A DNA stretch of 64,000 nt from NCBI RefSeq assembly GCF_900176655.1, contig NZ_LT838843.1, positions 241,400 through 305,399 of the forward strand, written 5' to 3'. A program made the position numbers and the translations under genes. Of the stretch, positions 22,470-28,295 are shown in pieces (positions within the stretch are counted from its first letter, which is position 1; the number at the start of each line of letters is the position of its first letter). The notes beneath the pieces were generated by a model. The model was not told where the DNA came from. It worked only from the letters and a program-made list of their open reading frames with translations, and did not search any database. The stretch comes from Collinsella vaginalis. Its GTDB lineage: Bacteria > Actinomycetota > Coriobacteriia > Coriobacteriales > Coriobacteriaceae.

Positions 22470-25241
22470 ATGGCCAGCACCCCTGACACCCGCCGCACCG
22501 TCGCCGTCATCGACGGCAACTCACTCATGCACCGCGCCTTCCACGCCGTGCCCCCCACCATGACGGCTCCGGATGGCCGATCCACGAACGCCGTCTTCGG
22601 CTTTCTGAACATGTTCCTGAAGATGGTGGACAGCTTCCACCCGGATGCCGTGGTCTGCGCGTTCGACAAAGGGAAGCCACAGGTCCGTATGGACATGCTG
22701 CCCCAATACAAAGCCCAGCGCCCACCCATGGATGCCGACCTGCACGAGCAGTTCCCCATGATCAAGGACCTCCTGCGCAGCCTCTCAGTACCCATCCTCG
22801 AGGCCCAGGGGTGGGAGGGGGACGACATCCTCGGTACCCTCGCCCGCCTCGGTGAGGAGGCCGACCTCAACGTTCTGCTCATCACCGGCGATCGCGACAT
22901 GTACCAGCTCTCCACCGATCGGGTGAAGATCGTGGGGACCAAGAAGGGCCTGTCGGATGTCCAGGTCATGACCCCCGAGACGGTCCAGGACCTCTATGGC
23001 GGCATCACGCCCGAGCTCGTGCCCGACTTCTACGGCCTGAAGGGGGATTCCTCGGACAACATTCCCGGCGTCCCCGGTATCGGACCCAAGAAGGCCGCGG
23101 CCCTGATCATGCAGTACGGGAACTTGGATGAGGTCATCGCTCATGCTGACGAGGTCAAGGGCAAGATGGGCGAGAACCTGCGCGCCCATATCGACGATGC
23201 GCTGCTCTCGCGCAAGGTGGCGACCATCCTCACCAACGCCCCGGTGGATATCGACCTCGCGGCGGTGAGTTTTCCGGCCTTCAACGCCGATGACGTCACC
23301 CGCTCGCTGGGGGAGCTCGGCATCAACGCCATGCAGAACCGCTTCCTCGCCCTGCTCTCGGGTGAGTCGGTCGCCGCATCCACCGCTGCCCCGGCGCTCG
23401 TCATCCCCGAGCGGCTCATCCTCGCGTATGAGGCGTCTTGGGAGGCTGTGGAAGAGGCGGTGGCCGAGGTCTCCCGCGCCCTTGACGCTGGGGCTTGGGT
23501 CGGTGCCGTCCTGGTGGACAAGGCCGACCCCGCAGCGCTCTTCGGGCCCGCACGCCAGCTCTGGGTCGCTACGGATGAGGCGCTGATCTGCTTCGAGGGG
23601 GCCGTCGAGGGCGCTGCGGCGCCCCGGGAGATCGCAGGCATCGACCTCTCGATCGGACTGGTCGAAGGTGTGCTCGCGTCCCTGTTCGCCTCAGGCCGGA
23701 TCGCCTCGCCGGACACCAAGATCCTCATCCATGCGCTTGCGCCGTATGACTCGGCCACCCCCGCCCACCTCGATCCCCTCGATCTGGACCCCGAGCGGCT
23801 CTTCGACACCGTGATCGCAGCCTACCTGCTTGACTCCGCTCGATCGGATTTCGGGGACGCCTACGTTGCCGACACCTACCTGGGCTCCCCGCTCCCGGTT
23901 GCGAAGGGGGAGGAGGGTGCCGCCGCGGACGCGCTCCCGGCCCCCGCGATCTCGGCCTTCGTGGCCCGTGCCGCACGCGAGCCCCTCGATCGCGCCCTCG
24001 CCGAGGGCGGTTCTGAGCGCGTATTCCGCGAGATCGAGATGCCGCTCGTTCCTGTGCTCGCCCAGATGGAGCGCACGGGCATGTACGTCGATCCGGTCAA
24101 GCTGGGGGATCTCGCGCGGGTCCTCGGCGAGCAGATCGACGCCCTCGCCGTCCGGATCCGCGAGCTCGCCGGCGACCCCACCTTCAACATCTCCAGCCCC
24201 ATGCAGCTCTCGCATATCCTCTTCGATCAGATGGGCCTGCCCACCCGCGGCCTCAAGAAGACGCAGCGCGGATACTACTCCACCAACGCCAAGGTGCTCG
24301 AGGAGCTCGCGCATGAGCACGAGTTCGTTCGCCTGATCCTCGAGTATCGCGAGAAGACCAAGATCAAGTCCACCTACCTGGACACCCTGGGGCCGCTCCG
24401 CGCGGGTGACGGTCGGGTGCACACGACCTACAACCAGACCATCGCCGCCACGGGCCGTCTCTCAAGCTCGAACCCCAACCTGCAGAACATTCCCACTCGC
24501 TCGGAGCTCGGGCATACGGTCAAGACAGCGTTCTCGGCGGGGGAGGGCTCGGTCTTCGTCGCGGTCGACTACAGCCAGATCGAGCTGCGCCTGCTTGCGC
24601 ACCTCTCGGGCGATGAACATCTCGTGGCTGCCTTCAAGGAGGGCGAGGACTTCCACGCCGAGACGGCGGCCCGCGTCTTCGGCGTCCCGGTCAGCGAGGT
24701 GACGCCTGAGCTCAGAAGCCGCGCCAAGGCGGTGAACTTCGGCATCGTATACGGTCAGCAGGCTTACGGCCTCTCCCAGTCGCTCGACATCCCCCAGGCT
24801 GAGGCGCGCGAGATGATCGACCGGTACTTCGAGGCGTATCCCGGTGTGCGCACCTACCTGGACGGCACGGTCGCGTCCGCGAAGGCGACGGGTTATGCGG
24901 AGACGATGTTCGGCCGGCGCCGGCCCATTCCCGAGCTCAAGCAGCGCAACGTCAACCTGCGCCACTTCGGCGAGCGCACGGCCATGAACCACCCCATGCA
25001 GGGGTCTGCGGCGGACATCATCAAGCTCGCGATGATCCAGGTCGCCCGCCGCCTGCGCGAGGAGGGCTTCTCGGCCCGTATGATCCTGCAGGTGCACGAC
25101 GAGCTCGATTTCGAGTGCCCGATTCCCGAGGTCGACCGGCTCTCGGCGATGGTGCGCGAGGTCATGGAGCAGGTCGTCGAGCTCAAGGTGCCCCTGATAG
25201 CCGAGGCCTCCTGCGGTGCCACCTGGGCTGAGGCTAAGTAA
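22470..25241 (+). CDS. polA: DNA polymerase I
   Basis: The 923-residue protein starts with a 5'-3' exonuclease (FDKGKPQVRMDM, GWEGDDILGT, ITGDRDMYQL, GDSSDNIPGVPGIGPKKA within residues 60-210). A middle exonuclease-like domain (about 310-540) follows, and then a complete family A polymerase with motif A DYSQIELRLLAHLSGD near 700, motif B RAKAVNFGIVYGQQAYG near 755 and motif C QVHDELDFE near 874. The middle domain lacks the DxE motif of proofreading enzymes, so proofreading is probably absent, as in many Gram-positives. The ATG at 22470 follows gcgaggt. It fills gaps in repair and removes Okazaki primers. Confidence 0.97.
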   Translation: MASTPDTRRTVAVIDGNSLMHRAFHAVPPTMTAPDGRSTNAVFGFLNMFLKMVDSFHPDAVVCAFDKGKPQVRMDMLPQYKAQRPPMDADLHEQFPMIKDLLRSLSVPILEAQGWEGDDILGTLARLGEEADLNVLLITGDRDMYQLSTDRVKIVGTKKGLSDVQVMTPETVQDLYGGITPELVPDFYGLKGDSSDNIPGVPGIGPKKAAALIMQYGNLDEVIAHADEVKGKMGENLRAHIDDALLSRKVATILTNAPVDIDLAAVSFPAFNADDVTRSLGELGINAMQNRFLALLSGESVAASTAAPALVIPERLILAYEASWEAVEEAVAEVSRALDAGAWVGAVLVDKADPAALFGPARQLWVATDEALICFEGAVEGAAAPREIAGIDLSIGLVEGVLASLFASGRIASPDTKILIHALAPYDSATPAHLDPLDLDPERLFDTVIAAYLLDSARSDFGDAYVADTYLGSPLPVAKGEEGAAADALPAPAISAFVARAAREPLDRALAEGGSERVFREIEMPLVPVLAQMERTGMYVDPVKLGDLARVLGEQIDALAVRIRELAGDPTFNISSPMQLSHILFDQMGLPTRGLKKTQRGYYSTNAKVLEELAHEHEFVRLILEYREKTKIKSTYLDTLGPLRAGDGRVHTTYNQTIAATGRLSSSNPNLQNIPTRSELGHTVKTAFSAGEGSVFVAVDYSQIELRLLAHLSGDEHLVAAFKEGEDFHAETAARVFGVPVSEVTPELRSRAKAVNFGIVYGQQAYGLSQSLDIPQAEAREMIDRYFEAYPGVRTYLDGTVASAKATGYAETMFGRRRPIPELKQRNVNLRHFGERTAMNHPMQGSAADIIKLAMIQVARRLREEGFSARMILQVHDELDFECPIPEVDRLSAMVREVMEQVVELKVPLIAEASCGATWAEAK

Positions 25242-25362
25242 GGGCGCGGTACTCAGGTCCGGGCGCACCGGGCACCGGGCGCCGGGGCGCGGCTGGATTC
25301 GGGTGCGCCGGGGCTCGGCCGAGGCACAGTTGCCTGCGCGACCGCATGCACGGGATGGGTGT

Positions 25363-25565
25363 AAAACGTCATCTGAAGGCGGTTTAGCAGGAGATTTGCC
25401 TGGAAGTGCGGTTGAAAGTACGTTCTCGAGGCCATGTGAACCGGCGGCCGGTGGACTGGATGCCGGGTCGTGATCCCGCGCATGATCGCGTGCGCGGGAT
25501 GAGAGCAAAACGTCATCTGAAGGCGGTTCCGCAGGAGATTTGCCTGAGTGCGCAGTCGAGAGTAC
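25363..25565. repeat. Direct repeat of about 70 bp, spaced 144 bp, downstream of polA
   Basis: The 22 bp from 25363 (aaaacgtcatctgaaggcgg..) recur at 25507. Similarity continues through caggagatttgcctg and agtacgtt.tcgagg, and begins earlier at cgggatg (25351 and 25495). Part of each copy resembles the 40-bp repeat that follows. Confidence 0.75.
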
Positions 25566-25590
25566 GTTTTCGAGGTCTCTTTTGCAGGAC

Positions 25591-25960
25591 GTCCCCTGAA
25601 TGCGCGGCTTGCGGGATTGTTTTACCGAATGCTCTCTGGACGCACGAGCAGCTGCACGCGCCCCTCTGATCACATGGGTTTCTGGAGGGCTGCACTCAAG
25701 TCGTCCCCTGGATGCATGGTTTTTAGGGGGTTGTTTTCAAGATGTCCGCTGGATGCACGGTCATCCAGGGGAGATCCTGCACAATGCCTTGTTCTGTTTT
25801 GCAAACACGCAGGTCAGGACAGGGCGCCACCGGCTGTTTTCCGTTGCCCCCTACTGAAAACCGTGCATCCAGGGGACAACTTGAAACTCAGGTTCGAAAA
25901 CCGCGCATCCAGAGGGCATCTTGCAGTCCGAGGTCGAAAACCATGCATCCGGGGGGCACC
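25591..25960. repeat. Family of ~40-bp repeats in two opposing arrays
   Basis: Forward copies of a core near gtcccctggatgcatggtt start at 25591, 25631, about 25661, 25703 and 25744. Inverted copies (gaaaaccNNgcatccagggg) have their cores at 25861, 25901 and 25941, an exact 40-bp period. Two weaker forward copies lie at 25395 and 25540. The two arrays face each other across about 85 bp and can pair extensively. The region lies between convergent polA and kup. No gene is supported in 25242-26069. Confidence 0.75.
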
Positions 25961-25980
25961 CCGCTCGACCGAAGAACAAA

Positions 25981-26015
25981 ACGCGGGGTATGGCGGCCCT
26001 TGCCATACCCCGCGT
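25981..26015 (-). terminator. Intrinsic terminator of kup
   Basis: A 14-bp perfect stem (acgcggggtatggc at 25981-25994, gccataccccgcgt at 26002-26015) is followed on the minus strand by ttttgttctt. The T-rich side fits kup, not polA. Confidence 0.85.
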
Positions 26016-26069
26016 CCCGTTGAACACGCTCAATGAAACCTTGGAGTCTGAACCCTTGGAGTTCCGGGG

Positions 26070-28295
26070 TCACTTTCCCTCTTCGGCGCTCGGCAGACCC
26101 TCGGAGAAGAGGTCCTCGCCGCTCTCCTCTTCCTCCTCCGTCTCATCCTCGAGATCGACCTCGTCGGCGGCGACCTCGGCAGCCTCAGGCGCGACGGCCG
26201 CAACCGGCATGACCCCGGTGTTGCCCACGGGTCCGAGCATGGGCGCCGCGCAGATGCGCTCCAAGTGCGCCGCCGCGCGCCGCCGCACGAAGAGCGGCAC
26301 GTACTCGATGAGGGTCGAGGAGTTCTCCAGGCCGAACCACTGAGACGGCGAGCCGCAGGCGCGGCGGATCGCGTACTTGGCCGTCATGACGTAATGGTCG
26401 ATATGCAGGAGATCCGACTCGGGCGTCAGGGCCTTCCGCAGCATGCAGAAGCGGAAGTCGCCCACACGCGAGGGCTCGTGGTACACCGAGTACTCATGCT
26501 CCTGGGGCGGCAGCTCCCCTGAGGTCATCAGGTCGCCCACCACCTGCCGGAGGTAGGTGTTCACGCGCTGGTTCTCCTTGAAGCCCAGCTTGAGCGTCAC
26601 ATGGAAGACGAAGTCCGTGCCCACCGAGTTGACGTAGTACAGCCGCGTGTGGGGCTCATCGGTCACGAGCACGTTCACGAACCAGTAGGCTCGCGCCCGC
26701 TTGGGGTACTTGTCGAGGATCGAGTAGAGCACGTCGCGGTCGACGCAGCCCTTTGAGGAGCGATTGAGCAGGAAGACGAGGTTGTCGGCGCAGAGCGGGT
26801 AGTTCTCGTCGTTGCGCAGGCGCGCGAGCTGCCCGACGTAGTCCTTGATGGGCAGCATGACGGTCTGGGTGCGCTCGATCGCGGTGCCGCGGCGCCAGAT
26901 GAGCATCACCGCGAGGAGCGCGGTCGCCATCAGCAGGGTCACGTAGCCGCCGTGCATGAACTTGGTCAGGCTCGAGAGGAAAAAGCCGATCTCGATCAGG
27001 CCAAAGAAAAGCAGGAAGATGACGGCGCGGATGCGGCGGCCGAGCTGATGGGAGAGGTAGAAGCAGAGCAGGATGCTCGTCATCAGCATCGTGAGCGTGA
27101 TCGCGAGCCCGTAGGCCGCCTCCATATGCGAGGAGGTCTGGAACAGCAGGACGACGCCCACGCAGCCGATCCACATAGCCTTGTTGATCAGCGGGATGTA
27201 GAGCTGGCCCTTGGTGTCGCTCGGGTAGTTGATCTTGAGGTGCGGCATGAGGTTCAGACGCGCCGCCTCGGACACGATCGTGAACGAGCCGGTGATGAGG
27301 GCCTGCGAGGCGATGATCGCGGCAATGGTGGAGAGGATCACGGCGAAGGGACGAAGGCCCTCGGGGAGCATCTCGAAGAAGGGGTTGAGGTCGGAGATCC
27401 TCTGGAGCTCGATATTGCTCGAGTTGGCGAGGAGCCAGGCACCCTGGCCGAGGTAGTTGAGGATCAGGCAGGCCTTCACGAAGGGCCAGGAGGCGTAGAT
27501 GTTCGCCTTGCCCACGTGCCCCATGTCGGAATAGAGGGCCTCGGCGCCGGTGGTGGCGAGGAAGACCGAGCCCAGGATCATCGGGCCGGCGTGGTTGGTG
27601 GGGGAGGCGAGGAACATGATCCCGTACATGGGGTTGAGCGCGCGGAGCACCCCGAGGTCGCCCATGAGCATGTTGTAGACGCCGGCCGCGCCGAGGAAGG
27701 TGAACCAGACCGTCATGACCGGGCCGAAGGCGCGCCCGATGTTCGAGGTGCCGGCCCGCTGCGCCAGGAAGAGGACGCAGATGATGACGATGGTGATGAA
27801 GACGACCTTGCCCTGGTCGGCGCCGATGAGGGTCTGTCCGAGCTCGATGGTGCGCAGGCCCTCGATGGCCGTGGTCACGGTCACGGCGGGGGTGAGGATG
27901 CCGTCGGCCAGAAGCGTGGCGCCGCCCACCATCGCGGGCAGGATCAGCCATTTGCTGTAGCGGCGCACGAGGCTGTAGAGGGCGAAGATGCCGCCTTCGC
28001 CGCCGTTGTCGGCACGCATGGCGATGAGGACGTACTTGACCGTGGTGACCAGGGTGAGGGTCCAGATGACCAGCGAGAGGGCGCCGAGCACCATGTTCTC
28101 GTTGACCGTGGCGAGGCCGCCGTTACCCGACACGATGGCCTTCATGACGTACATGGGGCTCGTGCCGATGTCGCCGTAGACGACGCCGAGCGTCACCAGC
28201 ACCATGCCGACGGAGAGCGGGATGGCGCTGTGCGGGGCCTTCCGCCTGATACCGGTGGAATCTGGGGCGACGCCGCGCTCGATCATGTCTTTCAT
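26070..28295 (-). CDS. kup: Kup-type potassium uptake transporter
   Basis: The 741-residue protein opens with the Kup block VTLGVVYGDIGTSPMYVMKA. NGGEGGIFALYSLVRRY and ADGILTPAVTVTTAIEGL follow. About 12 membrane segments extend to residue 450, then a cytosolic C-terminal domain. It imports K+ by proton symport. The last 40 residues are strongly acidic (DLEDETEEEEESGEDLFSEG), more than is usual for Kup. ATG 28295 follows gaggag. A hairpin and a TATAAT -10 lie upstream (28324-28374); a strong terminator follows. Confidence 0.95.
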   Translation of the reverse strand: MKDMIERGVAPDSTGIRRKAPHSAIPLSVGMVLVTLGVVYGDIGTSPMYVMKAIVSGNGGLATVNENMVLGALSLVIWTLTLVTTVKYVLIAMRADNGGEGGIFALYSLVRRYSKWLILPAMVGGATLLADGILTPAVTVTTAIEGLRTIELGQTLIGADQGKVVFITIVIICVLFLAQRAGTSNIGRAFGPVMTVWFTFLGAAGVYNMLMGDLGVLRALNPMYGIMFLASPTNHAGPMILGSVFLATTGAEALYSDMGHVGKANIYASWPFVKACLILNYLGQGAWLLANSSNIELQRISDLNPFFEMLPEGLRPFAVILSTIAAIIASQALITGSFTIVSEAARLNLMPHLKINYPSDTKGQLYIPLINKAMWIGCVGVVLLFQTSSHMEAAYGLAITLTMLMTSILLCFYLSHQLGRRIRAVIFLLFFGLIEIGFFLSSLTKFMHGGYVTLLMATALLAVMLIWRRGTAIERTQTVMLPIKDYVGQLARLRNDENYPLCADNLVFLLNRSSKGCVDRDVLYSILDKYPKRARAYWFVNVLVTDEPHTRLYYVNSVGTDFVFHVTLKLGFKENQRVNTYLRQVVGDLMTSGELPPQEHEYSVYHEPSRVGDFRFCMLRKALTPESDLLHIDHYVMTAKYAIRRACGSPSQWFGLENSSTLIEYVPLFVRRRAAAHLERICAAPMLGPVGNTGVMPVAAVAPEAAEVAADEVDLEDETEEEEESGEDLFSEGLPSAEEGK

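Follow-up and report, generated by a model that had tools for sequence, protein, structure and literature searches.

A dispersed family of opposed repeat arrays in Collinsella vaginalis as a candidate mobile foldback element

The gap between polA and kup in Collinsella vaginalis carries a copy of F1, a dispersed repeat family in which tandem units on one strand oppose tandem units on the other around an off-centre palindrome. The dispersal of F1, its fixed layout, its intergenic placement, its absence from the polA-kup gap of the closest relative and its apparent homology to a sister family there are supported directly by the comparisons described below. A fuller account is that F1 constitutes a non-coding, non-autonomous foldback family akin to MITEs and REPINs, that it is mobilised by a Y1 transposase, that its units have multiplied, and that unit and recogniser change together. 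We hold this composite account to be evenly poised between right and wrong.

Layout of F1 at the polA-kup site

In the window, a stretch of 64,000 nucleotides, polA (22470-25241) and kup (26070-28295, on the opposite strand, and named on a score below its cut-off) are separated by 828 bp that contain two repeat families. F1 occupies 25581-25967. Three minus-strand units come first, followed by a head-to-head palindrome and, at a 104-bp offset, by three plus-strand units. From 29 copies we derived the unit consensus AAAACCGTGCATCCAGGGGACATCnTGCA, with a mean column identity of 76 %, and the sequence-only unit model (R1) matches these 29 source copies by construction. On the left arm, R1 detects minus-strand units at 25581-25610 (25.8 bits; contig C2:266980-267009), the outermost one found, at 25690-25724 (28.6 bits; C2:267089-267123), which pairs with 25854-25884, and at 25731-25764 (28.9 bits), where the unit doubles as the left half of the palindrome at the centre. 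An AGGGGG spacer and the palindrome itself (25738-25779) together cover 25725-25779 on the plus strand, as seen in alignments and with a hairpin model (R2; 68.4 bits, E 1.5e-10), a score that for own copies is a match by construction. The right half of the palindrome is a plus-strand half-unit (25762-25784; 13.3 bits), and the next plus-strand unit follows 104 bp on. The interior is 76 nt long and holds the motif GCAAACACGCAGGTCA (25801-25816, plus strand). The right arm is made of plus-strand units at 25856-25890 (34.7 bits), 25896-25930 (33.3 bits) and 25936-25967 (26.0 bits), whose starts are spaced by exactly 40 bp.

This spacing bears out the exact 40-bp period that an earlier sequence-only reading of the region had reported. 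The same reading had counted at least eight units, five in one orientation and three in the other. Both orientations are indeed present between the two genes, but R1 finds three minus-strand units, three full plus-strand units and the one plus-strand half-unit that belongs to the palindrome, and five units on one strand are reached only if very degenerate copies are counted. Moreover, the span then assigned to the arrays mixes two families, as the part from 25363 to about 25575 does not belong to F1. It is taken up by F2, a separate dispersed family with two tandem plus-strand copies of 92 nt each (25340-25431 and 25484-25575, together 25340-25575) that are 83 % alike and 144 bp apart. F2 units measure about 95 nt and occur as tandem direct copies with the core AAAACGTCATCTC..GATTTGCCTGA..GAAAGTAGGTTTTCG (in the window and at loci L069-L075). 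F2 has 60 matches in the own genome at E<=1 and none in 42 other members of the genus at E<=0.001, and it adjoins F1 at three loci (the window, C2:131 kb and C3:288 kb).

The proposal that the two sets of units can form a long paired structure also holds, with minus- and plus-strand units complementary over 31 nt at 90 % and over 27 nt at 93 %, and with stable predicted folds. As RNA, 25690-25885 is predicted to fold at -111.4 kcal/mol (z -9.6; none of 200 shuffles as good) and its other strand at -101.1 kcal/mol (z -9.0), while 25580-25975 folds as DNA at -88.7 (z -5.1; none of 100 shuffles as good). It is conceivable, then, that the loci act as RNA, in the form of long gene-end hairpins that terminate mRNA, protect it or expose it to RNase III. 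The very stable folds on both strands speak for such a role, as does the avoidance of divergent promoters in 15 of 16 determined loci across the genome. However, covariation among own copies does not rise above shuffles (161/500), that among copies of the closest relative is weak (26/500 on cells, 61/500 on pairs), and a single terminator-like site is predicted in 25000-26300, the same as in shuffles. Rfam gives no match either: none at E<=1 in 25200-26100, and at gathering scores in 14 loci only one tRNA. The fold may be a by-product of a mobile hairpin. We consider a function as RNA quite unlikely and, because covariation within species is weak or absent, we do not claim an RNA structure.

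Dispersal of F1 and rearrangements at its sites

The own genome amounts to 2.16 Mb on 23 contigs, in which R1 yields 88 matches at E<=1. Apart from a single weak one that stands alone, they group into 17 clusters, in agreement with the earlier suggestion of a genome-wide repeat family. A search of the same 2.16 Mb for the unit core gave 14 matches with at most one mismatch and none for a reversed-pattern control. A core found nowhere else, together with unrelated sequence in relatives, had been named as the outcome that would speak against the suggestion; the core does recur and the suggestion stands, although relatives lack shared sequence. The order minus, centre, plus is kept in all 15 clusters that have units on both strands, the other two of the 17 having minus units only. 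All 17 loci lie between predicted genes, as delimited by a simple purpose-made gene caller, and the neighbouring genes are convergent at seven, codirectional at eight, divergent at one and undetermined at one. The idea of a structural boundary between convergent genes is set aside as unsupported by this count, with only 7 of 17 loci in that arrangement.

Degenerate CRISPR arrays had already been dismissed in the sequence-only reading, rightly so as the units are opposed in orientation and degenerate. While short units and variable spacers might recall such arrays, the layout refutes them: the units oppose each other, have a mean column identity of 76 %, are set apart by spacers of about 10 bp and recur at 17 loci, and one-way, near-identical repeats with repeat-length spacers are not what is found. 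We put the probability of this interpretation at practically nil.

Many F1 copies have in common a AGGGGGTT-like spacer next to the centre when read in one orientation. Of 11 interiors, seven, that of the window copy among them, match GCAAACACGCAGGTCA at an offset of 20-21 with at most six mismatches; of 1000 shuffled interiors, 125 contain such a match at any position. Apart from this motif, dispersed copies have nearly random interiors, with a mean similarity of 0.59 (52 pairs) versus 0.55 for shuffled ones. Three copies within 9 kb on contig C1 have interiors that are alike (0.91, 0.80 and 0.76), which indicates that F1 copies also multiply locally. Do the arrays then need to be mobile at all? 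They could have arisen by mutation in place, through slippage and template switching at a palindrome, a scenario in keeping with the tandem units on both arms and with the local look-alikes. Yet the F1 unit, the AGGGGG spacer and the interior motif recur at distant loci, a recurrence that calls for dispersal, and copies with a common spacer and interior motif point to common descent rather than independent growth. Origin purely in place is thus distinctly improbable in our judgement.

No transposase was found beside F1 among the ORFs at three wide loci. As a separate observation, a tandem run of the six-base word ccctgg (locus L014, about 592-646; C3:143.7 kb) adjoins an F1 unit, and the gene just before this run is one that we take to be recR-like.

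Rearrangements were seen at several element sites. A block of about 4.3 kb (L056 6600-11130; own C1:309-313 kb), which encodes a dimethylargininase-like protein, a basic amino acid antiporter and a GntR-type regulator, has an F1 copy on either side, and the two copies are similar in their interiors. In the closest relative (G001), the sequences that border the block lie within 509 bp of each other, and the genes of the block are on another contig. Furthermore, 1.8 kb downstream of the element after livF are inverted between the own genome and G001, and one G001 element sits where two stretches meet that the window separates by 16.6 kb. Breakpoints coincide with 3 of the 6 own F1 loci compared with G001, a small sample from which we draw no further claim.

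A sister family and opposed arrays elsewhere in the genus

When 42 other species of the genus were searched with R1, one weak and unconvincing match in one genome was obtained. G001, whose polA is 82 % identical, is the closest relative. Its polA and kup stop codons are 86 bp apart with no element between them, compared with the 828 bp in the own genome. After livF (a name whose score falls short of its cut-off), at a site that holds an F1 copy in the own genome, G001 has an element of different sequence. Its ends are GGGGTCGGTCTGACAGAAGTCCCCGCTGTGAACG and, at a distance of 102 nt, the exact reverse complement, with a palindrome inside the left of the two. Elements of this kind are about 172 bp long and occupy about 12 loci in G001. 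Their inverted ends, about 34 bp with GGGG tips, enclose an interior that keeps its length while its sequence is free: of 11 spacings measured from centre to end, ten are 104 bp and one is 102, a further copy being without a centre. The inverted ends, at 34 nt, are 100 % complementary in G001, whereas own copies have imperfect opposed arms. Allowing up to three mismatches, the G001 end repeat matches 18 times in G001 and nowhere in the 394 further genomes of the order that were searched. No target duplication was evident by eye at the candidate borders of the G001 ends, an absence that fits Y1 elements and is not positive proof of them.

The centres of own and G001 elements can be aligned; 8 of 18 pairs have changed on both sides, and 89 % of cells still pair. 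Such two-sided change with pairing kept points to homology and to a preserved palindrome, and the combined covariation of own and G001 copies is strong, though it rests on two clades only. From these alignments, own F1 and the G001 element appear to be homologous families with different sequence. Beyond the genus, the own unit gave one lone, chance-like match (a Prevotella MAG) and no viral match in sequence collections, and the G001 unit gave no match among viruses, plasmids or phages. R2, searched family-wide, reached E<=0.01 in 20 of 65 genomes, and the 10 loci inspected outside G000 and G001 looked like single terminator-like hairpins. A different long hairpin, GCAAGAAGCCCTCGC..GCGAGGGCTTCTTGC, is kept, its flanks included, across many species of the genus (L215-L217, L219, L229, L233, L234).

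Opposed arrays of other units were sought in stretches of about 400 kb per relative, with a scan that recovers 7 of 11 own loci (two of 13 wide loci excluded) and that finds one cluster in all shuffles together. G016 has them at two loci (L157 7053-7350 and L155 14419-14614), as 16-nt units in exact 20-bp steps, with AACTCTGTACTGACAG against TGTCAGTACAGAGTT at one; their neighbours are presumably ffh-like and adhE-like genes. G028 has them at three loci (L274 10860-11254, L263 5646-5994 and L267 2826-3082), from two families within one genome, one with 19-bp and one with 17- and 26-bp steps. These are the clusters kept, 2 of 4 in G016 and 3 of 7 in G028, after those that were self-complementary, of low complexity or terminator-like were dropped. 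Nothing convincing came from G030 or G005, scanned over 400 kb apiece, the five clusters of the former being of low complexity or terminator-like and the latter having none. In G058, inverted TCTCGATCTGTAACA units alternate with a 40-bp period at one locus within the stretch scanned (L190 3657-3883); their neighbours, on one side or both, are terminator-like hairpins that contain a word of the GGGGACAGGCACC type (L190; L212, L213). A strict structural scan found nothing in 378 kb of G016 or 400 kb of G058, and its sensitivity is low, as it recovers 8 clusters in 11 G001 loci and only 2 in 13 own loci. The arrays of G016, G028 and G058 match F1 in design and not in sequence, and we do not claim a common origin.

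Regular steps of this kind raise the possibility that the units serve as iterons for a DNA-binding protein of the host, which would act on the chromosome or in regulation, and that opposed arrays assemble a symmetric nucleoprotein complex. Steps of exactly 40 and 104 bp in the own genome and G001 and of exactly 20 bp in G016 suit this idea, and so does an interior that keeps its length without keeping its sequence. However, sites are mostly not common to sister species, unit sequence varies between species, and the periods of G028 (17, 19 and 26 bp) break general helical phasing. General phasing itself, with steps of 20, 40, 80 and 104 bp each taken to span a whole number of helical turns, is rejected because of the same misfit. 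Host-protein iterons therefore seem rather unlikely to us.

Possible transposition by a Y1 enzyme and known systems

Returning to mobility, F1 is probably moved by a Y1 transposase of the IS200/IS605 type (TIRYT). The basic form of the element would be the one that appears clean in G001, namely GGGG-tipped inverted ends of about 34 bp, a palindrome inside one of them and an interior constrained in length. In C. vaginalis the recognition unit, some 30 bp long, would have been multiplied in tandem on both arms, by slippage or unequal exchange, to give opposed arrays. Copies may spread as hairpin-forming single strands that are cut by a Y1 transposase acting in trans, an enzyme that would recognise the GRGGAC-bearing unit. 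Each lineage would have its own variant of the unit because unit and recogniser change together. The wholly different units of G016 and G028 imply that one recogniser cannot serve all. The TIRYT subclass is reported to have extra C-terminal DNA-binding domains (PMC6006769), which could read tandem units.

A Y1 transposase gene is present in G016 (L164 14200-15136; Pfam Y1_Tnp, E 7.3e-15), scoring 62.6 bits with NCBIfam REP_Tyr_transpos, below the cut-off of 80. Inverted GGGAAAATRGGGACWGTCCC repeats, whose core resembles that of F1, flank this gene and recur elsewhere in the stretch. Such systems thus exist in the genus, which is no demonstration that one of them moves F1. A seven-sequence HMM gave this one clear match and three more at E above 1, and an E. 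coli RayT query matched none of 20170 ORFs in 2.77 Mb; in the part of the own genome covered, no Y1 match held.

A more ambitious scenario, possible and in our eyes doubtful, is that F1 represents a genus-wide class of bacterial foldback elements in which iteron arrays oppose each other, in many cases about an off-centre palindrome. Unit sequence would be replaced wholesale between species while the architecture is kept, as the array changes together with a Y1 recogniser that has an extra DNA-binding domain, and such elements may border moved or inverted gene blocks. A family with opposed tandem arrays, with kin in a sister species whose units differ and with look-alikes built of other units elsewhere in the genus, would make it possible to study the joint evolution of recognition sequence and recogniser.

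Among small mobile palindromes in the literature, single hairpins, doublets and one-way arrays prevail, whereas the arrays of F1 are opposed, and no title found in the open-access library searched describes this family. F1 has several features of a MITE, being small (within 50-1000 bp), non-coding, dispersed and bounded by terminal inverted repeats, and the G001 element shares with REPINs the inverted doublet with an interior kept in length. In REPINs, too, the length and pairing of the interior are kept rather than its sequence, and F1 and the G001 element share with them the conserved inverted ends, extragenic placement, clusters and dispersal within a genome; however, as far as the REPIN account considered here goes, REP ends measure about 16-20 nt and bear a tag, compared with 30-34 bp here, REPINs number about a hundred and not 17 loci, they have neither the off-centre palindrome nor the opposed tandem arrays, and they go with RAYT transposases, a transposase not found in the part of the own genome covered (PMC3116915). 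REPINs bear GTAG or a similar tag at the base of a palindrome of 20-40 nt, and GTAG is absent from the F1 unit consensus and from the G001 ends.

TIRYT ends carry a GGGGWSAS motif (PMC3733652), which agrees at 7 of 8 positions with own GGGGACAT copies and at 7 of 8 with G001 GGGGACTT. TIRYT repeats and TIRtrons resemble F1 in their long inverted ends with such a core and in occurring as single, dimeric or grouped copies, but a Y1 gene with flanks of this kind is seen in G016 and none beside F1, and opposed multi-unit arrays, a feature of F1, are not among the TIRtron traits described in the sections considered (PMC3733652; PMC6006769). We file F1 neither as a REPIN, for want of the tag, nor as a proven TIRYT repeat; most likely it works like them.

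Modular elements from other bacteria offer further parallels. The BrickBuilt MITE of Porphyromonas gingivalis, with about 19 intergenic, species-restricted copies, is likewise a small element with inverted ends and tandem units inside, but its 23-nt tandem array runs one way between a leader and a tail, whereas F1 has two opposed arrays around a palindrome (PMC4596501). BOX elements of Streptococcus pneumoniae are also modular and intergenic, vary in the number of tandem modules and adopt a folded form, but these modules sit between different end modules, while in F1 the repeated unit is the inverted end itself (PMC3049150). A likeness in layout is also seen in eukaryotes: Galileo and Foldback elements have long inverted ends made of tandem subrepeats, which serve as transposase binding sites, and inversions occur at their copies (PMC3688188). 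They belong to the P superfamily, unlike F1, and are likened to it by layout, with no sequence relation expected. A family such as F1 would be a bacterial counterpart of these eukaryotic foldback elements.
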